DNA of 38,875 nt, from assembly GCA_018701395.1 (NCBI GenBank), contig JABIWU010000035.1, positions 1-38,875 of the forward strand, written 5' to 3'. Every line of letters starts with the position of its first letter. The stretch's first letter is position 1. Both the position numbers and the translations under genes were made by a program. The notes below the pieces were generated by a model, which saw only the letters and a program-made list of their open reading frames with translations, ran no database searches and was not told where the DNA came from. This document shows positions 23,039 to 38,378 of this stretch, piece by piece. Origin of the DNA: Phycisphaerae bacterium (lineage in GTDB: Bacteria > Planctomycetota > Phycisphaerae > Phycisphaerales > SM1A02).

Positions 23039-24658
23039 ATGGAAACACTTAATCGAATCGCAAATAAAGCAAGAATGAGAATGCAATTCAACGTAACCGT
23101 TTCGAATTGCATTCACTGGTTTTTGTATGTTTGTTGTGCGGTGCTTTTGCTAGCCATCATTGATAGAGTTGGCGCCTCTCCATTGTTTTCATGGAATATC
23201 GTTTTCATTATTGCAGGGGTGGGTGGGATATTTATATTAATATTAGAGTGGACTGCAAATAGTTTTTCAACTGTTGAGGCTGCATATGAATTAGACGATC
23301 GAATGCAACTACGCGATCGCATTTCTTCTGCGTTGGCATCGAAAGATATTGATACTCCATTTTCAAAAGTAGTGTTAGAAGATGCATTACAAATTGTGGA
23401 AAGCAAACAAGTCGTTGCTTCAATGCCAAAACATTTTCCAATAGTATTGCCTAAGAGATTTAACTGGGTACTAGGAGTAATAGCCGCAACTGTGATGGTG
23501 CTGTGGACCCCGCAATGGGGGTTCTTTCAATCAGACAACAATACTTCAGTTGCTTCGGCTGTGATTGCGTCGAGGGAAAATATTGAAACTTCAATAGATG
23601 CTGTTCTTGAAGAATTGCAGTCAGACAAAGAATTAAACGAGGCCCTCGAAGAGGAACTCGCCGAACTTGCTGCTACAACCCAAAACAATGTAGTAGATCC
23701 AGAAACAATGCGCCGCGATGCATTGCGAAAAATGACAGATTTGCAAAAACGTCTCGATGAAATGTTACAAGACGAAAATGCACTCGCATTTGAAGAAATG
23801 TTACGTCGGATGCAACAATTGAAACTGCCAAAATCTGGAAACACAGTACCAATGGTTGCCGCGCTGAAGAACGGAAACTTCGATAAAGCAAAAAAAGAGT
23901 TTGACACACTTCAAGAGAAAATGGAATCGGCCACTCTTACAGAACAAGAACGTAAAGAACTCGAAAAACAACTCGAGGCATTATCCGAACAACTAAATAA
24001 ATTAAGTGATTTAAACGAATCTCTAGCGTCTGCGTTGTCGGCGGCAGGCATGAATAGCGCACTTGCAAAAAATGCAGAAGCAGCAGGAAAAGCAATAAAA
24101 AACGCAAAAAATTTAAATGCTGAACAAAAACAAAAGTTATTAAAAATGCTTAAAGCACAGCAACTAGCAAACAAGATGTGCGAAAAAATGAGCGAGGGTT
24201 GTAAACAGTGCGCAGGTGGAAAATCTGGAATGCCTACCGTAAGCGAATTAGAAAAAATGCAGGCAATGCAGTCGTTTAAAACTAAAGCGCAAATGGCTAA
24301 AAGTGCCTGCAAACAAGCAGGCGCAAATATGTCTGCAACTGGTGGTGAAGGTAAGGGAAATGGTGGTTCGAACCCCACGACAGAAACGGAATCAACCATG
24401 GTTGCCCAGCGGACAGCAGTCTCTACTCTAGATGGAACAATAATTGCTAAACAATTGTTTGAAGGCGGTATGCTGACAGCGGGTGAATCTACTTCAGAAG
24501 TGAAGGATACAGTCCTAGCGCAAAGAATTGCAGCAGAACAAGCGATTACAGACGAGGAGATTCCTCGAAAATATCACGATCTTCTTCGTCATTATTTTGG
24601 AAAACTTGAAGAAATGACCGAGACGTCTAGAAACGATGACACCGATAACAACGATTAA
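23039..24658 (+). CDS. Three-TM coiled-coil membrane protein, DUF4175-like style
   Basis: This 539-residue protein has membrane segments at about 24-43, 53-72 and 147-165. The short region between TM2 and TM3 is amphipathic (STVEAAYELDDRMQLRDRIS). After TM3 comes a long charged coiled coil (about 185-400) with many Glu/Lys/Gln/Met heptads and a CxxC-like KMSEGCKQCAGG at about 385. The tail ends in a Gly/Ser/Thr linker and a terminal helical segment with DEEIPRKYHDLLRHYFGKL. That final motif and the membrane-plus-coil layout resemble proteins that accompany MoxR-DUF58-VWA operons in planctomycetes and DUF4175-type proteins. I cannot confirm the family. It is the first gene of the operon, and the next gene overlaps it by 23 bases. 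Confidence 0.75.
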   Translation: METLNRIANKARMRMQFNVTVSNCIHWFLYVCCAVLLLAIIDRVGASPLFSWNIVFIIAGVGGIFILILEWTANSFSTVEAAYELDDRMQLRDRISSALASKDIDTPFSKVVLEDALQIVESKQVVASMPKHFPIVLPKRFNWVLGVIAATVMVLWTPQWGFFQSDNNTSVASAVIASRENIETSIDAVLEELQSDKELNEALEEELAELAATTQNNVVDPETMRRDALRKMTDLQKRLDEMLQDENALAFEEMLRRMQQLKLPKSGNTVPMVAALKNGNFDKAKKEFDTLQEKMESATLTEQERKELEKQLEALSEQLNKLSDLNESLASALSAAGMNSALAKNAEAAGKAIKNAKNLNAEQKQKLLKMLKAQQLANKMCEKMSEGCKQCAGGKSGMPTVSELEKMQAMQSFKTKAQMAKSACKQAGANMSATGGEGKGNGGSNPTTETESTMVAQRTAVSTLDGTIIAKQLFEGGMLTAGESTSEVKDTVLAQRIAAEQAITDEEIPRKYHDLLRHYFGKLEEMTETSRNDDTDNND

Positions 24659-25631
24659 ATTTTTCGTTTGTTTGTTTTTAATCGGTTGTTCAATGAACTC
24701 GAATGAAAAACCGGTATTGACAGTCTACGTTTCTGCAGACGAACAGATTGCACGAGAAGTTTTCGCTGTCTTTACTGAAAAAACTGGAATAGAAATTGAA
24801 TGGGTAGGTGATACAGAGTCTTCAAAAACAACAGCTCTTGTTCAGCGGTTAATTAGGGAAAAAGAAAACCCAGTCGCCGATGTATTTTGGTCATCTGAAA
24901 TTTTAGGTACAATACAACTTGCAAAAGCGGGTGTATTTGCTTCATCAAACACAAATACTTGTCTTTCTTGGCCAAAAGAGCATAGAGATTCTGAATATCA
25001 ATGGTTTGCTTTTTCGCCAAGAGCAAGGGTAATAGCGTATGACCCACAAAAAGTTCAAGAAGATTCCTTGCCAAAAACGTGGTGGGAATTTGGGACAGCA
25101 TCAATGGCCGACCCGAGGTTCGGTACTACTGGTACGCATGTCGCCGTGATGGCTACTGTTTTTCCAGAGGAGTTTGCGAATTTCTTGCAGGAGATGGAAG
25201 GAACGGTATTGCTTGGTGGTAATGCTGCAACAGTGCAATCGGTTATTGATGGTACGGCTTTATTCGCTATGACAGACAGTGATGATGTTCACGCTGCAAT
25301 CGAAAGGGGAGAATCAATAGCGATGCATTACCCAAAGCACAGAACTGGCGCTGGTGGCGGCACATTATTGATTCCAAACACCGTTGGAGCGATAAGAAAT
25401 TGCTCAAATCAAAAACTTGCAGAAACGTTTATAGACTTTATGCTCAGCGATGAAGTTGCAACAATACTTGCTTCATCTGCATCTAAAAATATTCCGTTGC
25501 AACATTCAGTTTTGGGTTCATTTCCTGAATTGATTGTTGAAAATCCACTTGAAGTTTCATTTCAAGCGGCTGCTTTTTATAGAGAAAAAGCTATCAACCG
25601 TGTAATGGAAGCGCACAGAGATGGCGATTAA
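24636..25631 (+). CDS. ABC-transporter substrate-binding lipoprotein, iron (FbpA)-like but atypical
   Basis: This 331-residue lipoprotein has a signal ending FLIGC with lipid-accepting C18. The mature part follows the periplasmic binding-protein fold of ferric/spermidine-type SBPs: VLTVYVSADEQIAREVFAVF, FTEKTGIEIEWV, VADVFWSSE, and GGGTLLIPNTVGAI ... FIDFMLSDEV. In FbpA the iron is held by a Tyr pair in the C-terminal half. Here the corresponding stretch reads ALFAMTDSDDVHAA with no Tyr pair, so the ligand may not be ferric iron. The gene overlaps the permease gene by 11 bases, so they form a transporter pair. No ATPase gene lies in the operon. Confidence 0.85.
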   Translation: MTPITTIKFFVCLFLIGCSMNSNEKPVLTVYVSADEQIAREVFAVFTEKTGIEIEWVGDTESSKTTALVQRLIREKENPVADVFWSSEILGTIQLAKAGVFASSNTNTCLSWPKEHRDSEYQWFAFSPRARVIAYDPQKVQEDSLPKTWWEFGTASMADPRFGTTGTHVAVMATVFPEEFANFLQEMEGTVLLGGNAATVQSVIDGTALFAMTDSDDVHAAIERGESIAMHYPKHRTGAGGGTLLIPNTVGAIRNCSNQKLAETFIDFMLSDEVATILASSASKNIPLQHSVLGSFPELIVENPLEVSFQAAAFYREKAINRVMEAHRDGD

Positions 25632-28026
25632 GAAAAATAATTTCTTGACTTTTATTGGTTTAGGAATTGTCTTTGTAGTTGTTGTGTACCCTGCGATTCT
25701 ATCGCTGTTTTTAGTTTCAGTCAAAAGCGAAATTTCGTCTGTTTCATCGCCATCTTCGATGGAAATAGTACTACGCACAATGATTTGGTCCTTTTTTGTA
25801 GGCATTGTTGCAACAGCGATTGGCTGGCCAGTTGGTATACGGCTTGTTTCGTTAAAGCGGAATTCGCAACGTGCTTTGCTAGCAATGTTTGTCATGACGC
25901 TGATTATTCCAGCGTATGCAATATTTTATGTGTGGTGGCAAGCATGGCCTTCAGGAACTTGGTTGCATGCAATTATTGTTGAGCATGGCTACCTAGGTGT
26001 TGCGTCAAAAATTTGTCTTGCAATTGCGCTCATTGCATGGTCTTGGCCAATACCTGCGCTTGTATCATCAATGATTGCCCGTTCAGATAATACGTTGTCG
26101 ATTCTGCACCAATTGGACAACACATCTTTCTTTCGAAAAATCGTGTTGCGAATTCAGAAAGATATAAAAATTATCAGTTTGTCAATTTTAATTGTTGCAG
26201 CTATAACCGCATCGAATACAACTTGTTTTGACCTAGCCCAAGTTGTAACTATTGGAAATGAGTTGCGCAGTGTTATTGCTTCAGGCAATTCGCTTTTTTC
26301 TGTACCTCTTTTAAGTTTTTCTGGATTGACCATTGCGGTTATTTCAGCGGTATTACTTATTCGATTTTCATCTAAAAGCCAAGTCTCCATTCAAGCAAAG
26401 CACAAAACTGCAACCCCTATTTTTATACTTTGGTTTGCATTGTCTGGCTTGCCACTTTTTGTAACTTTTATAATTACAAAAAGTAATATTATGGAATTCA
26501 TCAAACTGTACCAAGGTGACATTGCCAAAAGTTTGCTTATAGCTTTTGGCGTTGCTTGCGTGAGTGTGTTTATCCTCATAGCTTCTGCAACAATGCATCT
26601 TTCATCGTCTTCAGCGACAAAAACGATCGCAAAAGGTATAGACTTTAGTTGGATAGTCGTAGCTTTTTTGCCAGCAAGTATTATTGTTTCTTTCTATTCA
26701 ATTTCTTGGCACTCAACTGGAATTGATTGGATGTATCGAACACCAGTCATTCTCATTTTCGCTCATTTAACAAAAGTTGGCTTCGTTGCTTCATTAGGTG
26801 GAAAGTGGGTTGCTTCATGTAGCTCAATTAAAACGTTATTTGCATTAGATAATACGCAAAGTATAAAGCAAACCTTAACAGCACTCTTTCCTAGATTAGT
26901 TATTTCATGCGTTGTACTTGTTGGAGTTTCATTTGCAGTTTCTCTTAGTGAGGTTGCACTTACCAATCAACTTTCTCCGCCGTCTACAAATCAGCCAATT
27001 GCTGTTGCTCTTTTGAACGCGATGCATTACCAACGACCTCAGACAGTCATTTCGGCGCTTTTAATAGTAATTCTTGTTGCAGGGTGTAGTGGCTTGGTCA
27101 TAGCATTCGCAAATCGTAAACTTGTAACACTGCTATGTATAGTGTGCATTGGGTCATGTAACTCCTATGAACAAAATCCAATTGCTGATGCTATTCAGAT
27201 CGGGGGAGCCGGTCGCTCTGACGGCAGGTTTACAACACCAAGAGCAATTGCAACAAACAATGATGTTGTAGTTGTTATCGATAAATCTGGTCGGTTACAG
27301 AAGTTCAACCATGATGGCGTGTTTCTTTCATCTTGGGAATTGAAATTGTCAGGTACCGGTTATCCAACAGGAGTTTCTATTGATAGCGACGGTTCTATCT
27401 GGATTGCTGACACGCATCAACAACGAATTCTCGTATTGAATCAAGATGGCAAAGAGCTCTTCCATTTCGGTTCGTACGGAACTGAAGATGGTCAATTTTT
27501 ATACCCTACTGACATAGCATTTGGCAAACAAGGTGAAGTGTTCGTTTCTGAATATGGAGGCAATGAACGTATAAATGTTTTTAATCTTAGTGGAGAATTT
27601 CAATATGCGTTCGGTCATTTTGGAAGCGACGAAGAAGGATTCATCAGACCACAGTCAATTGCAATTTCACCAACGACAGGAAACTTATTTATTACTGATG
27701 CCGGCAATCACCGAATTGTTGAACGAACTCCAAAAGGAGAAGTTGTTCAGATTATTGCTTCTGCCGGTCGTGAAATTGGCGAACTTCTTTACCCTTACGG
27801 TATTGTTTTCGATTCGGATAATTCCATAATCGTCTGTGAATTTGGCAACAATCGACTACAGCGGTTTTCTACGGATGGTGAAGTAATCGAAGTATTTGGG
27901 GGCGCCGGAGATACCAATGGTTTGTTTAAAACGCCGTGGGCGATTGAGATTGTTCCAAATGGTTTCATTGTTGCTGACACAGGAAACAACCGTCTGCAGC
28001 GGTTGCCCGATATGATGGCATTCTAA
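25621..28026 (+). CDS. ABC permease (FbpB/ThiP-like) fused to a six-bladed NHL propeller
   Basis: The 801-residue frame has two parts. Residues 1-500 form a double-length inner-membrane permease with about 12 hydrophobic segments. The second half shows the iron/thiamine permease pattern SLSEVALTNQLSPPSTNQPI ... NAMHY (442-470). The cytoplasmic EAA loops that dock the ATPase, expected near 159-180 and 401-424, are degenerate: both read xLDNT where EAAxxLGA is usual. Residues 501-512 are hydrophobic and end in IGSC513, like a lipobox. Residues about 525-801 hold six NHL blades (PTGVSIDSDGSIWIADTHQQ, FITDAGNHRIV, VCEFGNNRLQRF, VADTGNNRLQRL). A GGAAG precedes the ATG by 9 bases. An alternative is two genes, with an internal TTG at 27094 starting an NHL lipoprotein. 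The ligand is unknown. Confidence 0.85.
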   Translation: MAIKKNNFLTFIGLGIVFVVVVYPAILSLFLVSVKSEISSVSSPSSMEIVLRTMIWSFFVGIVATAIGWPVGIRLVSLKRNSQRALLAMFVMTLIIPAYAIFYVWWQAWPSGTWLHAIIVEHGYLGVASKICLAIALIAWSWPIPALVSSMIARSDNTLSILHQLDNTSFFRKIVLRIQKDIKIISLSILIVAAITASNTTCFDLAQVVTIGNELRSVIASGNSLFSVPLLSFSGLTIAVISAVLLIRFSSKSQVSIQAKHKTATPIFILWFALSGLPLFVTFIITKSNIMEFIKLYQGDIAKSLLIAFGVACVSVFILIASATMHLSSSSATKTIAKGIDFSWIVVAFLPASIIVSFYSISWHSTGIDWMYRTPVILIFAHLTKVGFVASLGGKWVASCSSIKTLFALDNTQSIKQTLTALFPRLVISCVVLVGVSFAVSLSEVALTNQLSPPSTNQPIAVALLNAMHYQRPQTVISALLIVILVAGCSGLVIAFANRKLVTLLCIVCIGSCNSYEQNPIADAIQIGGAGRSDGRFTTPRAIATNNDVVVVIDKSGRLQKFNHDGVFLSSWELKLSGTGYPTGVSIDSDGSIWIADTHQQRILVLNQDGKELFHFGSYGTEDGQFLYPTDIAFGKQGEVFVSEYGGNERINVFNLSGEFQYAFGHFGSDEEGFIRPQSIAISPTTGNLFITDAGNHRIVERTPKGEVVQIIASAGREIGELLYPYGIVFDSDNSIIVCEFGNNRLQRFSTDGEVIEVFGGAGDTNGLFKTPWAIEIVPNGFIVADTGNNRLQRLPDMMAF
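27094..28026 (+). other. Alternative internal start: stand-alone NHL-repeat lipoprotein
   Basis: An in-frame TTG at 27094 (residue 492 of the fused frame) would start a 310-residue protein beginning MVIAFANRKLVTLLCIVC and reaching IGSC: a basic n-region, a short hydrophobic core and a lipobox-like Cys. AGGG lies about 9 bases upstream. If used, the NHL propeller would be made as a separate lipoprotein, either instead of or in addition to the fusion. Only experiment or comparison with relatives can decide. Confidence 0.35.
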
Positions 28027-30908
28027 TGATGCTTCCGATTCAATTCGATCGACCTGGTTGGCTTTTATTGCTCTTGCTTATAGTTCCAGTTCTGTATTTG
28101 GCTTGGGGTGGATTAACAAGAACTGGCTCTCGAAGCAGAGCAATTGCTTCAACTAGTACGAGGTGTATTGTCGTTGCTCTACTGGCAGTAGCAATCGCCA
28201 AACCAGTTTGGAAAAAGGCAGGCGAAGGTGTTACGGTTATTGCAGTGTTGGATAGAAGTCAATCTATTCCTCGCAACTTGCAAGACCAAGCAGTTTCAAC
28301 GTTGCAGAATTGGACTTCACCCGAACACCGTGGAGAAAACAACCGACTCGCTGTGATAAGTGTTGCTAAAGATGCTGTCATCGGTTCGATGCCAAGCGAA
28401 TTAACAATGTTTGAACCAGCTGCGAATGACCCGGTTGGGAGCGAAACAAATTTAGCAAAGGGTGTGCAACTTGCACTCGCACTGTTACCAAAAGATACTG
28501 CCTCTCGAATCGTAGTGATTTCTGATGGCAATGAAACGGATGGTCTGGTTCAATCGACTGCAAACTTAGCAAAAGCCAATGGCGTTCCAATTGATGTACT
28601 GCCATTGCACTATGAACATGTAAATGAAGTGATGATTGAGAGAGTAATTGTTCCGTCCCAAACTAGGATTGGTCAATCTATTCCAATTCGAATCATCCTT
28701 CGAAGCGTTGGTTCTTCTAGTGGAACTTTGCATCTATTGCAAAATGAAATTAAAATTGATATTTCACAAGAGGAGCAGGGAACTGGATTGCCTTTACGGT
28801 TGAAAAGTGGAGCGAATGCAATAGTGTTCGACATTCCAATCGTGCAGAGTGGTCCTCAGATTTTTGAAGCGATGTGGGTGCCTGATCATGGGTCCGACAC
28901 AATCACCGCAAACAACACAGGTCTGGGGGTTTCGTTTGTATCTCAGGGTGGTCTCATTTTACTTGTAACTCAAAATAAGGTTGCAACCGCACCGTTGCAA
29001 GAAACACTAGAGTCTTCAGGTCTCAAAATTGAAGTGCGAACACCACAAGAAATACCTCGAAGTAGTATTGGATTTTCTGCTTTTGATGCTGTGATACTCG
29101 CAGATATTCCACGTTGGTCAATCGACGATTTGCAAGAACAAAACTTGTACACCTTCGTTCATGATGTAGGTGGAGGGCTAATTATTACCGGAGGCCCAAA
29201 TTCATTTGGCGCTGGCGGTTGGATCGGTTCTAAGTTAGAACAAGCAATGCCACTTAAATGTGAACCGCCCCAAACTCGCCAACTTCCTCAGGGTGCACTT
29301 GCATTAATTATGCACTCATGTGAAATGCCAGAAGGTAATTATTGGGGCCAACGAATGGCGAGCGCTGCAATAGAATCGCTAAGTGAATTAGATTACATTG
29401 GAATCATCGAATACGATTGGAATGGTGGAAATGGGACGTTAAATAATTCTGGTTGGACATTGCCGATGCAACTTGCTGGCGACAAAGTTGCGGCGATGGA
29501 TGCAATTAATAGTTTAGTGTTTGGTGATATGCAAGATTTTGAATCGCCAATGCAATTAGCATTAGATAGTTTTAAGGATCTTAGTGCAGCTCAGCGCCAT
29601 GTCATCATTATTACCGATGGCGATCCTGCTGGCCCATCGCAGGGATTACTTGAAGCATATAGGTCTGCAGAAGTTACTATTTCAACAGTGATGGTGGGTG
29701 GACATGGTTCAGCAATGGACCAACAAAAAATGCAGGGTATTGCAACGGTAACTGGCGGTAGATTTTACATGGTCAACGACCCGAATTTACTACCGAGTAT
29801 TTTTATTAAAGAAGCGCAATTAAATTCTCGTTCTTTAATGCAGGAAGGAAATACTTGGGACGTTGAAATTCAACAGAGTATATCTGGTCCAGTAAGTGAA
29901 ATTCAATTTGTTCCGCAACTTAATGGATATATAGTTACTGGAGGCAAGGGTGGCCTTGCGCAGACACCTTGGGTTGTTCCCGTTATAGACGGAGACGACC
30001 CGCTTCTTGCATGGTGGCACTTTGGGCTGGGTAAATCTGTTGCTTTTACAAGTGACCTTGGTGATAGATGGGCAACGCAGTGGCCGAACTGGTCAGCTTT
30101 TCAAGAGTTTTGGGAAGCGACAACTCGTTGGGCAATGCGAGGTGCATCACCTCCGAACATGATGGTGATGTCTAAGATTGAAGGCGGGAGAGGAATTGTT
30201 GATATCGAAGCTGTTGATGACGAAGCTTCATTTTTAAACTTCATGCAATCTAAAGCTGTCGTCATTAATCCAGAAGGAGAGGCGCAACCGTTAACTTTGC
30301 AACAAACTGGACCCGGCAGATACCATGCAGAATTCGATGCTGAAGAAGCTGGAGCATGGCTCGTGAATATTGCCTTCCAAGATGCAAAGGGTGAGATGAC
30401 AGGGCGTATTCCAACTGCGATTGCAGTTCCTTACGCGCAAGAATACGCGTCTACATCTGCAAACGGAGCATTACTACACAACCTCGCAAACAGTACGGGT
30501 GGCAGAATACTCTCACTTTCAGATGTGGAATTTATTGATTTGTTTGATGGTGATAATCTTGAAGTTCCTCAAAGTCCACAGCCAATTTGGGATTTACTCG
30601 CAATACTTGCGGCATCTATTCTGATTCTTGATGTTGCAATTCGTCGGCTTTGGATTGACAAAAAAAGTATGCAGTCAATGCTTGCTCCAGTTGGAAAAGT
30701 ATCTTCAGTTTCAGTCGATGCTTTACGAAAAGTTCATAAGTCAGTAGATCGTAATGTAACTACAGCGGAAGAGACTAATTCTGAAGTAGATTCTCTCAAA
30801 GAGGAAGAGCCAAGTCCTACAAAGAAGAAAATTGAGAACCGAGATGACAATTTAAGTCAGTTGTTGAAAAACAAACGGAAGCGAAGCGGTGAAGGGGACG
30901 ATGTATGA
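28026..30908 (+). CDS. Membrane-anchored VWA/GATase1-like protein of a MoxR operon
   Basis: This 960-residue protein starts with two BatA-style membrane segments (about 11-28 and 43-61). A VWA domain with MIDAS-type DRSQS (about 76-80) and VISDGNET follows. A Rossmann-like GATase1-type segment (about 310-420, GGGLIITGGPNSFGAGGW) leads to a second VWA-like domain (about 425-610, HVIIITDGDPAGPSQG). Its metal site has become MHSCEMPEG instead of DxSxS, so it probably does not bind metal in the usual way. A beta-rich region follows, then a C-terminal TM (PIWDLLAILAASILILDVA) and a charged tail of about 80 residues. The bulk should face the periplasm. Stop/start overlaps (TAATG before, ATGA after) couple it to both neighbours. 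It is likely a substrate or partner of the adjacent MoxR ATPase. Confidence 0.85.
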   Translation: MMLPIQFDRPGWLLLLLLIVPVLYLAWGGLTRTGSRSRAIASTSTRCIVVALLAVAIAKPVWKKAGEGVTVIAVLDRSQSIPRNLQDQAVSTLQNWTSPEHRGENNRLAVISVAKDAVIGSMPSELTMFEPAANDPVGSETNLAKGVQLALALLPKDTASRIVVISDGNETDGLVQSTANLAKANGVPIDVLPLHYEHVNEVMIERVIVPSQTRIGQSIPIRIILRSVGSSSGTLHLLQNEIKIDISQEEQGTGLPLRLKSGANAIVFDIPIVQSGPQIFEAMWVPDHGSDTITANNTGLGVSFVSQGGLILLVTQNKVATAPLQETLESSGLKIEVRTPQEIPRSSIGFSAFDAVILADIPRWSIDDLQEQNLYTFVHDVGGGLIITGGPNSFGAGGWIGSKLEQAMPLKCEPPQTRQLPQGALALIMHSCEMPEGNYWGQRMASAAIESLSELDYIGIIEYDWNGGNGTLNNSGWTLPMQLAGDKVAAMDAINSLVFGDMQDFESPMQLALDSFKDLSAAQRHVIIITDGDPAGPSQGLLEAYRSAEVTISTVMVGGHGSAMDQQKMQGIATVTGGRFYMVNDPNLLPSIFIKEAQLNSRSLMQEGNTWDVEIQQSISGPVSEIQFVPQLNGYIVTGGKGGLAQTPWVVPVIDGDDPLLAWWHFGLGKSVAFTSDLGDRWATQWPNWSAFQEFWEATTRWAMRGASPPNMMVMSKIEGGRGIVDIEAVDDEASFLNFMQSKAVVINPEGEAQPLTLQQTGPGRYHAEFDAEEAGAWLVNIAFQDAKGEMTGRIPTAIAVPYAQEYASTSANGALLHNLANSTGGRILSLSDVEFIDLFDGDNLEVPQSPQPIWDLLAILAASILILDVAIRRLWIDKKSMQSMLAPVGKVSSVSVDALRKVHKSVDRNVTTAEETNSEVDSLKEEEPSPTKKKIENRDDNLSQLLKNKRKRSGEGDDV

Positions 30909-31960
30909 CATTTACTGCTGAAAATCTTCCTTGTGAAATTCAAACAACAGATGATGTGCGTACAGCTTGCTCAGTAATTAAAACCGGTTTTATGCACATG
31001 CGAAACGAAGTGGGTAAAGTGATTGTGGGACAAGAGCGGGTGGTCGATTTAGTTTTGGTTGCGATTCTCGCAGACGGACACGCTCTTCTTGAAGGTCCGC
31101 CGGGATTGGGTAAAACACTTTTAGTGCGAACACTTGGTGATGTATTAAAACTTTCAATTGGGCGGATACAATGTACTGCGGATTTAATGCCGGCGGATAT
31201 TGTTGGGACTACTGTTGTTGACGAAGACCCTGCGACAAAAGCGAGGCGTTTTACATTTCGCGAAGGTCCAGTGTTTAGCCAGTTATTGCTTGCTGATGAA
31301 ATAAATCGAGCAACTCCCAAATGCCAATCAGCACTTCTTGAATCTATGCAAGAACACTCGGTTTCAGTAGATGGGAATACGCGGGATTTGCCAGAACCAT
31401 TTTTTGTACTTGCTACGCAAAACCCAATTGAACAAGAAGGCACCTTCCCACTTCCGGAAGCGCAACTTGATCGTTTTATGTTCAAAATAGATGTGGACTA
31501 TGCATCACGAGAGGAACTATTCAAAATTGTTTCACGAACTACAGGTGAGAAAACTCCAAATGCTGAAGTTGTAGTAGATGGTGATTTTATTCTCGCTTCA
31601 ACGCAAATAATTCGCCATGTTGTGATTGCGCCACACATTCAAGATTACATCACGCGACTGGTTTTATCAACGCATGCAGATTCTTCGCACGCACCAAATT
31701 GGGTTCAAGAAAATATTAGTATTGGAGTTAGCCCTCGGGGCGCTCAGGCAATTGTTTCAGCAGCAAAAGTGGCAGCAGTTGTTGATGGCAGGTTTGCAGT
31801 TTCTAGGAAAGACATCAATGCCGTTGCAATTCCTGCGTTGCAACACAGGATTGTTCGAACTTTTGAAGCCGAAACGGGCGCTCGTTCATCAAGTTCATTA
31901 ATTGCTCGTCTAGTAGATGAAATCCCGTGTTTTGAAACCTGGGAGAGTTTTGATGTCTGA
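30905..31960 (+). CDS. MoxR-family AAA+ ATPase
   Basis: The 351-residue MoxR protein is an ATP-driven chaperone thought to activate or assemble VWA-domain partners. Walker A EGPPGLGKTL (63-72), Walker B LLLADEINRA (127-136), sensor 1 ATQNPIEQEG (170-179) and the LDRFMFKI segment with a conserved Arg (R190) are all present. The C-terminal lid region contains GVSPRGAQAIVSAAK, typical of MoxR. Size is normal. Its ATG overlaps the stop of the VWA gene by 4 bases, with AAGGGG upstream as ribosome site, and its end overlaps the DUF58 gene. The MoxR-DUF58-VWA order is the classical arrangement. Confidence 0.95.
   Translation: MTFTAENLPCEIQTTDDVRTACSVIKTGFMHMRNEVGKVIVGQERVVDLVLVAILADGHALLEGPPGLGKTLLVRTLGDVLKLSIGRIQCTADLMPADIVGTTVVDEDPATKARRFTFREGPVFSQLLLADEINRATPKCQSALLESMQEHSVSVDGNTRDLPEPFFVLATQNPIEQEGTFPLPEAQLDRFMFKIDVDYASREELFKIVSRTTGEKTPNAEVVVDGDFILASTQIIRHVVIAPHIQDYITRLVLSTHADSSHAPNWVQENISIGVSPRGAQAIVSAAKVAAVVDGRFAVSRKDINAVAIPALQHRIVRTFEAETGARSSSSLIARLVDEIPCFETWESFDV
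31942..31947 (+). promoter_or_regulatory. Shine-Dalgarno motif fixing the DUF58 start
   Basis: GGAGAG lies 5 bases before the ATG at 31953, inside the end of the MoxR gene. It favours this start over the in-frame ATG at 31917, which would overlap MoxR by 44 bases. Confidence 0.7.
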
Positions 31961-32882
31961 GTTCGGAAAAACAGTTCATTCTCGACCGGACAAAGTGGAT
32001 GCTTTATTGGGCTCTACGTTGATGGCGTCATTAGACAAACTCGATATTGTCGCTAGAAAGATTTTTAGCGGAAAAACCCAAGGCGAACGAAGAAGTCGCC
32101 GCCGGGGAATGAGTGTGGAGTTTGCTGACTATCGACAATACACTTCCGGTGATGATTTACGATTTATTGATTGGAATGTGTATGCTCGGCTTGATAAATT
32201 GTTTATGAAAATCTTTTTAGAAGAAGAAGAGTTGACGCTGGGAATTGCAATCGATGCAAGTGCTTCAATGGAATTTGGCAACCCAAATAAATTCGATTTT
32301 GCTCGCCGACTTGCAATGGCGCTTGGCTACATTGCCCTGAGCAGTCACAATAAAGTTTCTCTTTTTTCTTTTAATGATCAGGGCGTAAAGAGATTGTCGG
32401 CTCTTCGTGGGAGAAAACGAACTCGTGATGTTGGGCAATGGTTGTTAGATTTAATACCACAGGGCGGAACAGCGTTTGTTGATGCATGCAAAACAATTTC
32501 AACTGCAAGGCAAGGCAGAGGTGTATTGGTTGTAGTAAGCGATTGTTTTGACATTGAAGGTACGAAGCAAGGATTGTCGTATCTAGTTGGCGGCGGTTGG
32601 GATGTTTTCGTTATGCAAGTGTTGTCTCCTGAAGAAATTAATCCACTACGATCTGGTCTTGAGGGTGATTTGCGTTTAGAAGATGCAGAAACAGCGGACA
32701 CTTGTGAAATTACGGTTACTGCTCCGCTTGTCGACAAGTATATGCAACGACTCCAATCGTACTGCGAACAAATTCGTGACCAATGTAAGAGAGTCGGCGC
32801 AGGAAATGTAAAAGTTTCAACTGATATTGATATGGAGCAATTACTTGTTGAGTATTTGCGCAGCAGGGGGCTGTTGAGATGA
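31953..32882 (+). CDS. DUF58-domain protein of the MoxR operon
   Basis: This 309-residue protein belongs to the DUF58 family that is almost always encoded next to MoxR. The signature GMSVEFADYRQYTSGDDLRF-IDWNVYARLDKLFMKIF is complete. It is followed by a VWA-like core with DASAS (MIDAS pattern) after TLGIAI, and later VVVSDCFD. No membrane segment is present, in contrast to DUF58 proteins with N-terminal TMs, so it should be cytoplasmic. The start at 31953 follows GGAGAG. It overlaps the MoxR stop by 8 bases and its own stop overlaps the next start in ATGA. Confidence 0.92.
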   Translation: MSEFGKTVHSRPDKVDALLGSTLMASLDKLDIVARKIFSGKTQGERRSRRRGMSVEFADYRQYTSGDDLRFIDWNVYARLDKLFMKIFLEEEELTLGIAIDASASMEFGNPNKFDFARRLAMALGYIALSSHNKVSLFSFNDQGVKRLSALRGRKRTRDVGQWLLDLIPQGGTAFVDACKTISTARQGRGVLVVVSDCFDIEGTKQGLSYLVGGGWDVFVMQVLSPEEINPLRSGLEGDLRLEDAETADTCEITVTAPLVDKYMQRLQSYCEQIRDQCKRVGAGNVKVSTDIDMEQLLVEYLRSRGLLR

Positions 32883-34864
32883 CTTGGGTAACGCCTGAAA
32901 CTGGATTAATTCTTGGCGCAGTTACAGTTCCACTTTTATTGTTGTTGTATTTTCTACGGCTACGCAGGCAACCACTTCGAATTTCCTCGACAATGTTATG
33001 GGTTGGTGCGGTTGAAGACTTGCATGCAAACGCTCCCTTTCAACGGTTACGCCCAAGTCTTCTTCTTCTATTACAACTGATCGCACTTTGCCTTATCGTT
33101 CTATCTCTTATGCGACCTTTAGTTGAAGGTGGAGCAATAAAAGAAGGCAAGCACGTGATTCTTATAGATCGTTCTGCCTCTATGTATGCAGACGTGCATG
33201 ATGGCGAGACTAGATTTGACAAGGCAAAACTAGAAGCAAAAGAATTAATTACACAAATTCACGGCGGCGGTCTATTTTCAGCAAGTGGTGGAGAGACGAT
33301 GGTTATCGCATTTTCAGAATCTGCTGAAATTGTAATTCCATTTTCAAATTCAGAACAGCAACTTAATTCTGCGATAGACGCAATAGATCCTTCTCATGGT
33401 AAATCCAATATAGAAGATGCGTTGAAACTCGCTCGCGCCTATACCACGAATGTAGATCCAGAACAAAACGGGATGTCGATGGGAAACTCTGCTCAGTTAG
33501 AATTATTTAGCGATGGAAATATCAGCGATTTGAATTTGCAAGCACTTCAACGTGGCGAGACGATCAGATATCATCAAATTGGAGACGTGAATGATTACAA
33601 CGTTGGCATTACAATGATTAGTGCTAAGCGACTTTCTGAAGCAAGTGATGAAGTGCAAATATTTTTGTCGTTGGTTAATTCAGGAACAAAAACAGTAACT
33701 ACGGATGTCGAAGTTTCATTTAATGGAATTCCAGTTGGCATTCAGCAAGTTCAAATCCCACAAAGAGATGGCGACATGCTCGGTAGTAAGAGCGTTGTCT
33801 TTGCACCATTTGAAATTCCGACAGGCGGGGTGGTGCATGCGGCAATTTCTGCAAAAGATTTGTTGGAAATTGATAATATTGCATCTCTTATTATTGCTCC
33901 ACCAAAAGAACTTAAAGTTTTGCTCTGTGAAAATGGTGAGCAATTAATTCGGACAGTATTGGAAGGAATGCCATTAGAAAAATTGCATGTTGTTAGTCCT
34001 CAAACCTTAGTAAGTATGATCGAAACAGGAGAAACATCTCAGTTTGATGTTGTTGTAGTACGAGACGTTCAATTAAATTCATTACCTCAGGGTAGGTACT
34101 TGCTTTTTGGACCTCCCCCAAAATTAAACGTATTTTCCACTTTTGTTGAAGGCGAAGCGCAAGTTATGTTGGTTGCAAGAGAACGACATCCCGTTATGCG
34201 ATTTGTGCGTTTTGAAGATATCGTTGTTTCGAAGGGGTACGAAATAGTAACAGACACAAATGTTGAAATATTACTCGAAGGTAGTGGTTGGCCAGCGGTC
34301 ATGGGTGCACGAGAGAACGGTATTCAAATAATCTATGTAGCATTTGATCCACTAGAAAGTAACTGGCCATATTTACGAAGTTTCCCTTTCTTTATTTATA
34401 ATGCAGTGCAATACCTTGGTAGAGGTGGGGATGCAATTTCAAACGCTCACCGAAATGTCGGACAAACGATGGCATTTGATATTCCCTCTGGTGTTGACGT
34501 TGTGACAATCGAAGAATCAAATGGCGATCAACATGCCGTTCAAGTTGATGTTAATGGGACAATAACTTGGGGTCCAGTTCGGCTCAGCGGTCTTCACAAG
34601 ATTTCATGGGACGGCAAGGTGCAACGAAGAGTCGCGGTGAATGTTCCTACAGAGGAATTAGATATTTCAAGTAATGCTTCGATTTCGATTGGCGCAACAA
34701 AAGTAACATCTAGTGGAACAAGTGAAAGTTCATTCGTTCAACTTTGGCCATGGGCGCTTGGCTCAGTTCTTGTAGTTTTGCTTGCTGAGTGGTGGGTATA
34801 CCAACGTAAAACAGGCGGTGTTAGTAGGTTTCATAAATCAAGGTCGACACAGTCATGGACATGA
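32879..34864 (+). CDS. BatA-like membrane VWA protein
   Basis: The 661-residue protein opens with the BatA N-terminal region: TM1 (about 8-25), LRLRRQPLRISSTMLWVGAVEDLHAN, and TM2 (about 61-78). A VWA domain with a complete MIDAS start DRSASM (97-102) follows. The remaining 400 residues are beta-rich and probably periplasmic, ending in a C-terminal TM (LWPWALGSVLVVLLAEWWVY) and a short basic tail. Two N-terminal TMs plus one C-terminal TM would leave the VWA and beta domains outside the membrane. A strong AGGGGG site lies 8 bases before the ATG, which overlaps the DUF58 stop. It is a probable MoxR client. Confidence 0.9.
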   Translation: MTWVTPETGLILGAVTVPLLLLLYFLRLRRQPLRISSTMLWVGAVEDLHANAPFQRLRPSLLLLLQLIALCLIVLSLMRPLVEGGAIKEGKHVILIDRSASMYADVHDGETRFDKAKLEAKELITQIHGGGLFSASGGETMVIAFSESAEIVIPFSNSEQQLNSAIDAIDPSHGKSNIEDALKLARAYTTNVDPEQNGMSMGNSAQLELFSDGNISDLNLQALQRGETIRYHQIGDVNDYNVGITMISAKRLSEASDEVQIFLSLVNSGTKTVTTDVEVSFNGIPVGIQQVQIPQRDGDMLGSKSVVFAPFEIPTGGVVHAAISAKDLLEIDNIASLIIAPPKELKVLLCENGEQLIRTVLEGMPLEKLHVVSPQTLVSMIETGETSQFDVVVVRDVQLNSLPQGRYLLFGPPPKLNVFSTFVEGEAQVMLVARERHPVMRFVRFEDIVVSKGYEIVTDTNVEILLEGSGWPAVMGARENGIQIIYVAFDPLESNWPYLRSFPFFIYNAVQYLGRGGDAISNAHRNVGQTMAFDIPSGVDVVTIEESNGDQHAVQVDVNGTITWGPVRLSGLHKISWDGKVQRRVAVNVPTEELDISSNASISIGATKVTSSGTSESSFVQLWPWALGSVLVVLLAEWWVYQRKTGGVSRFHKSRSTQSWT

Positions 34865-36105
34865 AATTCTTAAATAAAAATGTAACCGTGATGGGGCTCG
34901 GTAGGTTCGGCGGAGGCCTCGGCGTAACGCGATGGCTTCTAGACCAAGGCGCAAAGGTTTTGCTGACAGATCTCGCAAATGAAGACGAACTTACGAAACA
35001 AATCAAAGAACTTGGATCACATACAAATTTGCAAGTCGTTTTTGGCGAACACAGAATGGAAGATTTTTTAAGAGCTGACGTAGTAATTGCAAATCCTGCA
35101 ATTCAAACGCCATGGAATAATGTGTTTTTATGTGCAGCGTGGGAAGCAAATATTCAAGTTACAACGGAAATAGAAATGCTTGTGGATCGGTTACATCGTG
35201 AACGTGTTATCGGGGTGACGGGTACTTCTGGTAAATCAACAACTGCAACGATGCTATACGAAGGTCTTAAGAATGCCGGAATCACATGTCATTTAGGGGG
35301 CAATATCGGTGGAAGTTTGCTTAATTCTCTCTCAGAGATTAACGAAACTGATGTTGTTGTTTTAGAATTATCTAGTGCGATGTTGTGGTGGCTTAATAAA
35401 AATACCTCATGGTCGCCAAGCACAGCAGTTTTGACAAACATCGAACCAAATCATGTAGATTGGCATGGTTCTTTTGAAGAATATAAGTTGTGCAAAGAGT
35501 TATTGTTTGCGAATCAGACCGAGGGAGATATCGCAATTACACAAGATCAAAATGCCTCGTTCACTGGCCTTATTGTTCCTGGAAAGCATAATCAAAAAAA
35601 TGCAGCCGTAGCTTTTTTAGCTGGAGTCGCAATTGGCGCAGACCCAACTTTAGTACGAGAAGGGATTCAAAGATTCCGCGGCTTGCCGCATAGATTGCAA
35701 TTAGTTTGTGACGGGTACTACAATGATTCAAAATCTACTACGCCAAAAGCTACAGAACTCGCAGTCGATGCTTTTGCTGATGCTAAAAGAATCCACTTGA
35801 TAGTCGGCGGATACGACAAGAAAATTGATTTGACATTACTTGCAGCACAGGCAAAACGTGTTGCATGTATGTACGCAATTGGTGAAACTGCAAATGCAAT
35901 TGCAGTACTAGCTTCTGGAAATATAAAGCAATTTAAAAATCTTGAACAAGCAGTCGCAGAGGCAATGAAAAACATGAATTCAGACGATGTGCTTTTATTA
36001 AGCCCAGGGTGTGCGAGTTGGGATCAATTTGTACACTTTGAAGCACGCGGCGAATTGTTCTGCACATTAGTTAATGAATCGAAAGCGCACCAACAAGTTC
36101 ATTAA
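34855..36105 (+). CDS. murD: UDP-N-acetylmuramoylalanine--D-glutamate ligase (MurD)
   Basis: MurD adds D-glutamate to UDP-MurNAc-L-Ala in the cytoplasm, an early step of peptidoglycan synthesis. The 416-residue protein has the N-terminal Rossmann motif VTVMGLGRFGGGLG, the ATP-binding GTSGKSTT (123-130), LGGNIGGSLL, LELSSAMLWWL and NIEPNHVDWHG. Later come NDSKSTTPKA, LIVGGYDKKID and LLSPGCASWDQF, all typical of MurD. Two starts are possible: 34855 and 34861. The latter gives the ATGA overlap seen at other junctions of this operon. It is the last gene after the BatA-like gene, outside any division/cell-wall cluster. Its 3' end overlaps convergent pyrD by 35 bases. Confidence 0.95.
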   Translation: MDMKFLNKNVTVMGLGRFGGGLGVTRWLLDQGAKVLLTDLANEDELTKQIKELGSHTNLQVVFGEHRMEDFLRADVVIANPAIQTPWNNVFLCAAWEANIQVTTEIEMLVDRLHRERVIGVTGTSGKSTTATMLYEGLKNAGITCHLGGNIGGSLLNSLSEINETDVVVLELSSAMLWWLNKNTSWSPSTAVLTNIEPNHVDWHGSFEEYKLCKELLFANQTEGDIAITQDQNASFTGLIVPGKHNQKNAAVAFLAGVAIGADPTLVREGIQRFRGLPHRLQLVCDGYYNDSKSTTPKATELAVDAFADAKRIHLIVGGYDKKIDLTLLAAQAKRVACMYAIGETANAIAVLASGNIKQFKNLEQAVAEAMKNMNSDDVLLLSPGCASWDQFVHFEARGELFCTLVNESKAHQQVH

Positions 36106-36997
36106 TTGAATTGCATCCTTGTCGTTGAACCCATTTTTCGAGTTTCTTTGAAATGGTTGGTGCAATTGCTGGATTCACAAAGGATGCTGTTCCAATGCCA
36201 ACAGCGCTTGCGCCAGCAAGGATAAATTCTGCTGCATCTTCCCATCGCATGATGCCACCCGTGCCGATGATTGGTATGGAAGCTTCTTTGGCGACATCTC
36301 GATATATTTCATGCACAATTCGAACGGCAATTGGATGAATTATTTCACCGCTAAGACCGCCGACTTCTCTGGAAATTTTTGGATTTCTAGATTCAACATC
36401 TATCGCTAGAGAAGGGATGGTGTTTATGAGTGTTAGCGCATCTGCGCCGCATTCGATAGCCGCTTTTGCGTGGGGCCGAATATCCCCAGGTGTTGCAGAG
36501 AGTTTTACAAGCATTCCAGTATTCGTAAGAACTGGTTTAATTTCATTCAGTAATGAGGAAAGTCGTTTTGGGCAACCACCAAACTCAAGTCCGTCTGAAG
36601 TATTTGGACATGACACATTTATTTCAACCAAGTCAATGCCATCGATTTCGTTCATTGCATTTGCAACTTCAACGTATCCATCAATACTATCGCCAGCAAC
36701 CGAGCCTATGACTGTTGCGTTGATGGAGGTTGCTTTTGCAGATTGCTTTTCAATAAAAGATTGAATACCTTCATTTGCCAAGCCAATCGCGTTCAACATT
36801 CCATTTGAAAGCGTTGTCATTCGAACTGGGGCATTGCCAACACGAGGATCTTTAGTAATTGATTTAGTTGTAATTGCGCCGATGGTTGAAAGATTAATTG
36901 CATCCTTAATCTCACCCATGACCCCGCAAGTTCCTGCAGCTAATACAACTGGATTGCGAAGCGTCGTATTCCCAAGTTTTACCTGCATCACTGTCAT
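36071..36997 (-). CDS. pyrD: Dihydroorotate dehydrogenase, class 1B type (PyrD)
   Basis: This 308-residue FMN enzyme oxidises dihydroorotate to orotate in pyrimidine synthesis. Family marks are NPVVLAAGTCG (15-25), TTKSIT (43-48), NGMLNAIGLANEG, EINVSCPNT with catalytic Cys C130 (the Cys indicates class 1), and the FMN phosphate loop IIGTGGIMRWEDAAEFILAG. The sequence is closest in style to class 1B, which normally needs PyrK. No pyrK is in the window. The start at 36997 has a TACAAT box 8 bases upstream and no Shine-Dalgarno motif; an in-frame ATG follows three codons later. Confidence 0.95.
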   Translation of the reverse strand: MTVMQVKLGNTTLRNPVVLAAGTCGVMGEIKDAINLSTIGAITTKSITKDPRVGNAPVRMTTLSNGMLNAIGLANEGIQSFIEKQSAKATSINATVIGSVAGDSIDGYVEVANAMNEIDGIDLVEINVSCPNTSDGLEFGGCPKRLSSLLNEIKPVLTNTGMLVKLSATPGDIRPHAKAAIECGADALTLINTIPSLAIDVESRNPKISREVGGLSGEIIHPIAVRIVHEIYRDVAKEASIPIIGTGGIMRWEDAAEFILAGASAVGIGTASFVNPAIAPTISKKLEKWVQRQGCNSINELVGALSIH

Positions 36998-37080: not shown

Positions 37081-37674
37081 ATGAGCGATTTACAAGATAA
37101 AATTGATAGATTTCAGAACATGGCAATGGCTGACCCATCGAATGATATGGCGCATTTCAGTTTAGGTTCTGCCTATCTTGAAGCAAAGCGTTTTGGTGAA
37201 GCGGTTACAAGTTTTGAAGCATGTGTAGAACTAAACCCGGAAATGACAAGAGCAATGGAACTTGGAGGTTCAGCATTGATGCAAATGGGGAATACCGCAG
37301 ATGCCAAAGTTTTGCTCATTCGCGGGTACGAACAAGCAGCAGCAAAAGGTGAAATGCGAGTCAAAGACGGAATAGCATCCATTCTTACTGAATCTGGAAT
37401 TGAACTCCCAACAGTTGAACAAGCATCTCCGGGTGAAACTGGTAAATCATTGGACAAGCAACCGTTGCCCGGTAAAATTGGAAAGTGGATTTTAGAAAAT
37501 GTGGATGAAGCTCAATGGGATGCTTGGATTGGGCAAGGAACAAAAGTTATTAATGAACTACGATTGGATTTTTCAAGCGTAGAAGATCAAAGTAAATATG
37601 AAGAGTACATGGCAGAATATCTGGGGATACCTGCAAACATAATCGCCAAAGACCTAGAGGATGAGAACAAATGA
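37081..37674 (+). CDS. TPR protein with a C-terminal Fe(2+)-trafficking (YggX)-like domain
   Basis: The 197-residue product begins MSDLQDKIDRFQNMAMADPS. Residues about 15-85 form two TPR-like repeats (NDMAHFSLGSAYLEAKRFGE, EMTRAMELGGSALMQMGNTA). Residues about 138-190, LPGKIGKWILENVDEAQWDA followed by WIGQGTKVINELRLDF and EEYMAEYLGI, align by eye with the YggX family pattern (PGxLGxxIxxxxxxxAWxxW...INExxL). YggX is linked to iron handling and protection of Fe-S enzymes. The conserved N-terminal Cys of YggX (FCxF) has no counterpart; the only Cys is C43 in the TPR part. A GTG at 37060 is an alternative start but conflicts with the -10 box. The stop overlaps the next gene in ATGA. The YggX-like assignment is my own alignment by eye. 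Confidence 0.75.
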   Translation: MSDLQDKIDRFQNMAMADPSNDMAHFSLGSAYLEAKRFGEAVTSFEACVELNPEMTRAMELGGSALMQMGNTADAKVLLIRGYEQAAAKGEMRVKDGIASILTESGIELPTVEQASPGETGKSLDKQPLPGKIGKWILENVDEAQWDAWIGQGTKVINELRLDFSSVEDQSKYEEYMAEYLGIPANIIAKDLEDENK

Positions 37675-38378
37675 ATATGATCGATGAACTTACAGTTGAA
37701 ACGAATCAAACACAAAGAAGTGGTTTAGCGACTATTGCAATGGTTTGTTCTTTTATAATATGTTGCCCAATTACTACAATTGTAGGCCCAATCCTCGGTG
37801 TTATCGCATTGCTAACTCTTAGAGGGAAGCCACAATTGACAGGAAAAGGTTTTGCATGGACTGCGATTGTCGTAGGACTTATTTCGACAATAATCTGGGT
37901 TGGAGCAGGATTATTTTTTGGCAGAATGGCATTGAAGTTTATTGAGCAAGCCGGCGAAGTAACCACGACGACTATCCAAGCAGGATTCGACAAAGATTAC
38001 ACAACTTTTCGAGCAGGGCTTTCGCAAAGTTCATCGGATGTAACCGATGAGGAAATCGATCAATTTATTACTGAGTTAGAATCGAGATACGGTACATTTG
38101 ATTCTGCAGTAATGAATATGGAAGAGCAACAGCAAGGAATAAAGCCAACGGCAAATGAAGCACCGTTACCAATTCGGCTATTGTTTGAAACCACTGATGT
38201 CCCAGCAGATGTATTGATGGAAGTCATACCTAGTGGAGGATTTGAATTTGAATTTAAACTTGGTTGTATTCGAATTAACGACGCAAAACTTGGTGACTTA
38301 ATTTTTCCAAAGGGTTCTGCTTGTGACACGGCTCCTGAAGAACCAACAAAAGAGGAATCAGACGAATACCGCAGCTAA
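37671..38378 (+). CDS. DUF4190-like small membrane protein
   Basis: The 235-residue protein has two membrane segments in a DUF4190-like block (about 16-45 and 60-88: GLATIAMVCSFIICCPITTIVGPILGVIAL in two pieces, then GKGFAWTAIVVGLISTIIWVGAGLFF). An acidic extracytoplasmic or cytoplasmic region of about 145 residues follows, with DEEIDQFITELESRYGTFDS and a beta-rich end. Function is unknown. GAGGA lies 9 bases before the ATG, which overlaps the TPR gene stop. The following gene begins inside its stop codon (TAATG) and encodes a similarly built protein, so they look like a tandem duplicate pair. Confidence 0.8.
   Translation: MNMIDELTVETNQTQRSGLATIAMVCSFIICCPITTIVGPILGVIALLTLRGKPQLTGKGFAWTAIVVGLISTIIWVGAGLFFGRMALKFIEQAGEVTTTTIQAGFDKDYTTFRAGLSQSSSDVTDEEIDQFITELESRYGTFDSAVMNMEEQQQGIKPTANEAPLPIRLLFETTDVPADVLMEVIPSGGFEFEFKLGCIRINDAKLGDLIFPKGSACDTAPEEPTKEESDEYRS

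Follow-up and report, generated by a model that had tools for sequence, protein, structure and literature searches.

Studies of YggX go back to about 2001 and treat it as protecting iron-sulfur (Fe-S) clusters; SoxRS control, Fe(II) binding and protection from superoxide also count among the traits of the canonical protein. Work by Gralnick and Downs from 2003 reportedly found its Cys-7 to be essential in Salmonella, and studies by Gralnick and Downs from 2001 and by Velayudhan from 2014 are said to be the sources cited for its part in Fe-S protection and repair. Passages in PMC11078426 and PMC1360075 bear on this role and on the essential Cys-7. In structural terms, the pertinent passage of Kaur and Subramanian, 2016 (PMC4999995) counts E. 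coli YggX as one of several novel treble clefs with no zinc in their known structures. The described forms (E. coli b2962, PDB 1yhd and 1xs8; P. aeruginosa PA5148, 1t07; and 2mzy) are stand-alone proteins of about 90 residues, and the Cys-7 column is occupied by Cys in 12 of 12 canonical YggX rows.

The gene described here lies in the window, by which we mean the whole 38,875-nucleotide stretch of Phycisphaerae DNA that was analysed. Its product has a domain homologous to YggX over about 60-75 residues and has the core positions W39, W42, N51, E52 and L55 (E. coli numbers) in common with it. However, this domain stands behind tetratricopeptide repeats (TPR) in a protein of 197 residues, is without Cys-7 and the FC segment, misses the cut-off of the NCBIfam equivalog model, and is encoded beside pyrD and a DUF4190 gene, as opposed to the mutY-yggX arrangement of E. 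coli. A second point of comparison is offered by the treble-clef zinc fingers. Certain relatives of the window protein with four Cys residues resemble these, with one CxxC beside a hairpin and another at the start of a helix, whereas in the window protein all four ligands are missing and no hairpin is predicted. We found no report of a TPR-YggX fusion or of four-Cys YggX forms in the passages of open-access literature that were searched, a body of text to which subscription papers and supplements did not belong.

A cysteine-free YggX domain fused to TPRs

The earlier note on this DNA had recognized by eye a YggX-like domain, at residues 138-190, in the C-terminal part of a TPR protein. Comparison with the YggX family profile gives a significant match: PF04362 (Iron_traffic/YggX), for which the gathering score is 27, aligns with residues 122-181 at 43.9 bits (E = 2.1e-11), and the last 70 residues by themselves score 38.8 bits (E = 8.1e-10). 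A PDB sequence search with residues 115-182 recovered 2mzy (1.8e-7), 1t07 (9.6e-7), and 1xs8 and 1yhd (4.9e-4 each), all of them YggX structures. The score against NF003817, the NCBIfam YggX equivalog model, is 45.7 bits and thus below its cut-off of 74. Judged by these profile and sequence searches, the domain is a homolog of YggX and not its equivalog. The TPR fusion was likewise correctly perceived, with TPR_16, TPR_8, TPR_2 and TPR_19 of Pfam scoring over their cut-offs, all inside residues 24-86. So was the missing signature Cys: the YggX-like part has no Cys at all, the sole Cys of the whole protein being Cys48 in the TPR part. The residues standing at the columns of the four Cys of its relatives are Q, P, D and Q (Table 1). 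The ATG start is common to 12 of 12 full-length sequences of the genus; in the window gene, a GTG 21 bases upstream is likewise open.

Table 1. Features of the window discussed in the text, with positions counted from its first letter
Feature	Positions	Strand	Remarks
TPR-YggX fusion gene	37081..37674	+	197 codons and stop, intact, ATG start
TPR domain, residues 1-108	37081..37404	+	Pfam TPR models over cut-off; AF2 block with pLDDT 90-98
Linker with the eroded knuckle segment, residues 109-126	37405..37458	+	AF2 block with pLDDT 56 at 111-120; no strands of at least 3 residues
YggX core, residues 127-183	37459..37629	+	Pfam match 122-181 = 37444-37623
D142-xx-Q145	37504..37515	+	Columns of Cys 3 and Cys 4 in four-Cys relatives = S35, A38 of E. 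coli YggX
I157-N158-E159	37549..37557	+	Present in 59/59 domains of the order
Dihydroorotate dehydrogenase (pyrD) family gene	36071..36997	-	Divergent neighbour
DUF4190 protein	37671..38378	+	4-base overlap with the stop of the fusion gene
Bat/MoxR-type cluster	28026..34864	+	vWA protein, MoxR AAA ATPase, DUF58, BatA-type vWA protein, then MurD
801-aa ORF	25621..28026	+	Permease-like by eye; C-terminal NHL repeats
Solute-binding protein	24636..25631		Directly before the 801-aa ORF

An AF2 model of the window protein (66 sequences; pLDDT 91.0, pTM 0.59) has six predicted TPR helices, at residues 2-17, 22-34, 38-51, 56-68, 72-89 and 92-104, and its TPR part superposes on 3wxx over 108 residues with a Z score of 16.6 and an rmsd of 2.0. 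In the YggX part, the helices are retained and strands of at least three residues are lacking. The pTM of this model is such that it does not fix the arrangement of the domains relative to each other. With the entire model as the query, only TPR-type chains appear among the top 50 Foldseek matches. The structure alignments of the kind that gave the 3wxx match also listed TPR chains alone, and the absence of YggX from that list is no evidence.

Spread of the fusion and its cysteine states

PF04362 matches over the cut-off were recovered in 58 of 61 genomes drawn from the genus, family and order of the window, and the window genome has no further such match. The fused layout is found in 58 of the 59 proteins recovered from the order, the remaining one (L032) being cut at a contig end. 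One genome of the genus (G008) has two different TPR-YggX genes (L028, L029); with a stated contamination of 6%, its bin may be mixed. An FxC-type segment, mostly FxCxRTG, lies between the TPRs and the YggX core in 35 of the 59, with its Cys on the YggX Cys-7 column; 34 of these have this residue, Cys 1, alone and one has two Cys. The columns of window residues 109-126 are those that read FxCxRTG or FxCxRC in relatives. Thus, the proposal of the earlier note that the TPRs had taken the place of the Cys-bearing end of YggX does not hold, since relatives have both; the segment in the window genus has been eroded and shortened, not replaced. The families f5 and f6 have zero Cys in 10 of 11 proteins and two Cys in one.

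In the genus of the window, represented by 13 sequences from 12 genomes, no Cys occurs at the columns present in 13 of 13 (12 of 12 full-length sequences, and L032, which is missing the first two columns). The window genome is in 102 contigs, and an assembly error, frameshift or pseudogene in one metagenome-assembled genome might produce such a gene. However, the 13 sequences concur and are all open, and the domain bears the marks of purifying selection described below; the genus sample refutes this explanation, which we regard as extremely improbable. Cys48 of the TPR part, which is common to 25 of 32 one-Cys rows of the tree and 12 of 12 genus rows, was also considered as a stand-in ligand. 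It was rejected, as it is Ala in 8 of 9 zero-Cys rows of f5 and f6 and occupies position 27 of the TPR motif, where small residues stand.

Outside the order of the window the fusions are mostly of a different type, C-x-x-C ... C-x-x-C-W, as are two stand-alone genes; the exceptions are a one-Cys fusion (L064) and one-Cys stand-alone forms of f22 and other families. An order outside the class (f77, f90, f96) has the four-Cys fusion with CxxC...CxxC in 10 of 10 genomes. In all, we compared 160 non-identical domains, obtained by reducing 171 proteins to 148 through removal of identical ones and adding 11 stand-alone forms and E. coli YggX: 62 have four Cys, 2 have two, 73 have Cys 1 only and 23 have none, and Cys 2-4 without Cys 1 was not found in any of the 160. 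The CxxC between the TPR and YggX parts that the earlier note had envisaged in relatives is therefore present in 62 of 160 domains, along with a second CxxC further on. Six rows labelled as stand-alone (L126, L157, L169, L178, L181, L185) are probably fused genes with misplaced starts. Some stand-alone one-Cys forms (L063, L065-L068, L070, L071, L079, L092), mostly from f22, have an insertion of about 13 residues that separates the Cys segment from the helical core.

From 409 relatives the best 80 were taken; leaving out L119 and L132 and adding the window gives 79 rows, of which 51 have the second CxxC, 26 have S..T, one has S..A and the window has D..Q. The labels of these best 80 name Planctomycetota groups except for three 'uncultured bacterium' and L142, L144 and L171 (labelled Bacteroidia, Vicinamibacteraceae and Leptolyngbya), which we read as mislabelled bins. 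A plasmid search for forms outside Planctomycetota returned 39 records, all with less than 60% identity; the comparison extended to the names of 20 of these matches, each of which is called either an oxidative damage protection or an Fe(2+)-trafficking protein.

The four-Cys form and the treble clef

All four Cys are invariant in an alignment of 12 four-Cys domains. The profile made from these recovers the YggX structures with strong significance (2mzy 1.1e-15, 1t07 1.6e-15, 1xs8 1.8e-13, 1yhd 4.3e-13), and its alignment with E. coli YggX is gapless and sets the four Cys on C7, L10, S35 and A38, so that Cys 1 corresponds to the YggX Cys. An AF2 model of one four-Cys protein, L091 (47 sequences; pLDDT 94.2, pTM 0.69), has strands at 124-126 and 133-136 next to the first CxxC, a helix at 144-153, and a helix at 156-173 that begins at the second CxxC. 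A Foldseek comparison aligns it with 1t07 over 71 columns with an rmsd of 1.4, a TM score of 0.80 by target length and 32% identity. The model fits a reading of this domain as a treble clef, with an extra helix between the hairpin and the second CxxC. The series of Cys forms lends support from sequence to the structural claim of 2016 by which YggX is a treble clef devoid of zinc.

Polarity of the cysteine changes

To place these states on a tree, we thinned the 139 fused rows at 72% identity and used the 95 that were left. On this tree, 6 changes account for the Cys labels, as against 44 when these are shuffled, and 40 of the 41 rows on the side away from Phycisphaerales have four Cys. The number of changes is still 6 on a tree made without the Cys columns and their neighbours. 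With the out-of-class order as its outgroup, represented by L110 and five rows from genomes of that order (six rows in all, the domain sequence of L110 being identical to L195 of that order), parsimony puts four Cys at the root of this second tree. Good support is confined to 12 to 14 inner branches in each tree. We infer that four Cys are ancestral for the planctomycete fusion family, a polarity that depends on the root. By the distribution of the states, Cys is lost in the window genus and, separately, in f5 and f6. L064, a fused protein with Cys 1 only and the canonical C..L and S..A, groups among four-Cys proteins, and collapse to the same lone Cys therefore seems to have occurred more than once.

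The opposite polarity, with one Cys ancestral and the four-Cys site gained in planctomycetes, would draw on the single Cys of canonical YggX in 12 of 12 rows: used as an outgroup, these forms might favour gain, and the short tree of the domain that includes them, made without the Cys columns, has too few columns for rooting. This reading has to contend with the rooted count, with the four-Cys fusion in 10 of 10 genomes of the out-of-class order and the predominance of four Cys in the tree rows away from Phycisphaerales, as well as with the passage of PMC4999995 that, from structure alone, counts E. coli YggX among treble clefs that lack zinc. We consider such a gain unlikely.

Constraint on the cysteine-free domain

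We compared the window sequence with each of 11 sequences of its genus by uncorrected pN/pS, dN/dS being mostly saturated. In 10 of the 11 comparisons the YggX core has a pS of 0.56-0.91 and a pN/pS of 0.13-0.39; in the eleventh, with the near-identical L030, the values are 0.09 and 0.40. The segment that was formerly the knuckle (109-126) is looser, with a pN/pS of 0.28-0.69. Constraint on the TPRs (0.16-0.34) and on the YggX core (0.13-0.40) is about equal. W-x-x-W (or F-x-x-W) and I-N-E are present in 59 of 59 sequences of the order; as our row pattern demands N-E-x-x-L, the conservation of these letters is quoted only from these 59, which were picked without it. These ratios indicate that the Cys-free YggX domain is still under purifying selection.

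This bears on the possibility that the YggX-like part of this genus has lost its role in iron or redox chemistry and survives as a simple module for interaction or scaffolding, with the TPRs doing the main work. The loss of all Cys, the shortened and relaxed knuckle segment and the missed equivalog cut-off are what one would expect of such a module. Yet, the genus keeps W-x-x-W and N-E-x-x-L just as canonical YggX does, and its core is held about as tightly as the TPRs; we regard this alternative as somewhat unlikely.

Gene neighborhoods and distribution across genomes

The commonest neighbour in the 85 loci compared is the pyrD-family gene, which is at most four genes away in 27 and directly upstream and divergent in 25 (window included). 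In 11 of 13 window-genus loci (window included) a second DUF4190 gene comes next. Other recurrent neighbours, named by eye only, are of phosphoglycerate mutase, FHA and GreA types. We found no clue to iron among the recurrent neighbours of the TPR-fused genes in the 85 loci, pyrD saying little about it.

In two of two genomes of another order (f84), the stand-alone four-Cys gene directly follows sufC-sufD-sufS-sufU on the same strand, whereas such SUF genes for Fe-S assembly are not near the window gene. The assignments rest on NCBIfam scores of 336.7 for SufC (L191; cut-off 212.8), 547 for SufS (L190; cut-off 475.1) and 156.6 for SufU (L191; cut-off 92.5); SufD scores 220.9 in L190 against a cut-off of 222, and Pfam SUFBD is far over its cut-off in both L190 and L191. 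The SufU-like gene just before the four-Cys YggX gene in one of these loci (L190:6512-7312, minus strand) has an apparent frame change near its 3' end. By tblastn at 1e-10, SufC, SufD, SufS and SufU have no match in the window or in the examined flanks of TPR-fused loci, the only matches being in the two SUF-linked genomes. SUFBD proteins are encoded elsewhere in the window genome and occur in 105 of 298 genomes of the class and 18 of 65 of the order; since these are a minority, the TPR-YggX fusion is not dependent on SUF.

The distribution of YggX-type genes follows that of the terminal oxidase subunit COX1: both occur in 165 of the 298 genomes of the class, YggX alone in 6, COX1 alone in 19 and neither in 108 (Fisher test 1e-52, and 8e-38 outside the order, values that overstate independence as the genomes are related). 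This co-occurrence fits an oxygen-linked role, but many genes of aerobes would be expected to show such a link, and the common descent of the genomes inflates it as well.

In surroundings that resemble a treble clef, two CxxC pairs typically point to structural zinc. The four-Cys form might be a structural zinc finger with no relation to iron, binding for instance nucleic acid or protein, and to speak of Fe(2+)-trafficking would then mislead for the whole planctomycete branch, a reading that also agrees with the lack of SUF neighbours in the examined flanks of TPR-fused genes. We hold this to be improbable in view of the clear homology to YggX, the tracking of COX1, and the position of the stand-alone four-Cys gene at the end of the SUF gene row in both genomes that have it.

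Functional and evolutionary implications

We propose that the window protein is a TPR-addressed factor of Fe-S protection or repair, built on a degenerate treble clef that would no longer need a thiol; we put the chances of this at about even. The N-terminal TPRs would dock a partner protein and bring the YggX-type domain to it, and the core of this domain may cover or serve a labile Fe-S site by way of W-x-x-W and I-N-E-x-x-L. As all Cys are lost and the core is still selected, the domain would have to act through its protein surface and carboxylate and amide side chains rather than a thiolate, and such a surface could bind and shield an Fe-S enzyme or apo-protein. The suggestion of the earlier note that this is a planctomycete iron or oxidative-stress factor with an altered mechanism may point in the right direction; what speaks for it is indirect, namely the terminal oxidase co-occurrence, the four-Cys relative in a SUF operon and the selection on the Cys-free domain.

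In evolutionary terms, the ancestor of the fusion family may have held a metal ion by its four Cys, with one CxxC in the knuckle and the other at the start of the long helix. Metal would have stabilised this ancestor, which may also have served as a carrier of metal, and later forms would have dropped it. In the order of the window, Cys 2-4 would have been lost and Cys 1, the equivalent of Cys-7 in enterobacterial YggX, kept. In the genus of the window, Cys 1 and part of the knuckle would then have been lost as well, with selection holding the helical core and its W-x-x-W and I-N-E-x-x-L. What would have unfolded here is the loss of a presumed metal site by a domain that remained under selection.

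This points to the idea that the cysteine of YggX may be a dispensable relic. A more far-reaching version, which we think possible but on balance doubtful, is that an Fe-S assembly factor once had a treble-clef metal site with four Cys, since lost, and that Cys-7 is the one ligand left of it. Such a site would have collapsed three times to Cys 1, in canonical YggX, in the L064 lineage and in Phycisphaerales, and two lineages would have lost Cys 1 too, Fe-S protection continuing via the N-E core and the TPR-addressed surface. If this were true, the mechanism commonly ascribed to YggX, which relies on a thiol, would be secondary. The natural series from four through one to no Cys, with a four-Cys form beside SUF genes, offers a direct test of iron handling by YggX and of its need for the one Cys.

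Other genes of the window

Upstream in the window lies the Bat/MoxR-type cluster listed in Table 1. Genes of the vWA type occur near the TPR-YggX gene in 20 of 85 loci and those of the DUF58 type in 18 of 85. The 801-residue protein is a permease-like membrane protein by eye, with no Pfam permease match, and its C-terminal repeats match Pfam NHL at 4.7e-28. The best NCBIfam matches of the adjacent solute-binding protein are of the phosphonate type and lie far below cut-off.
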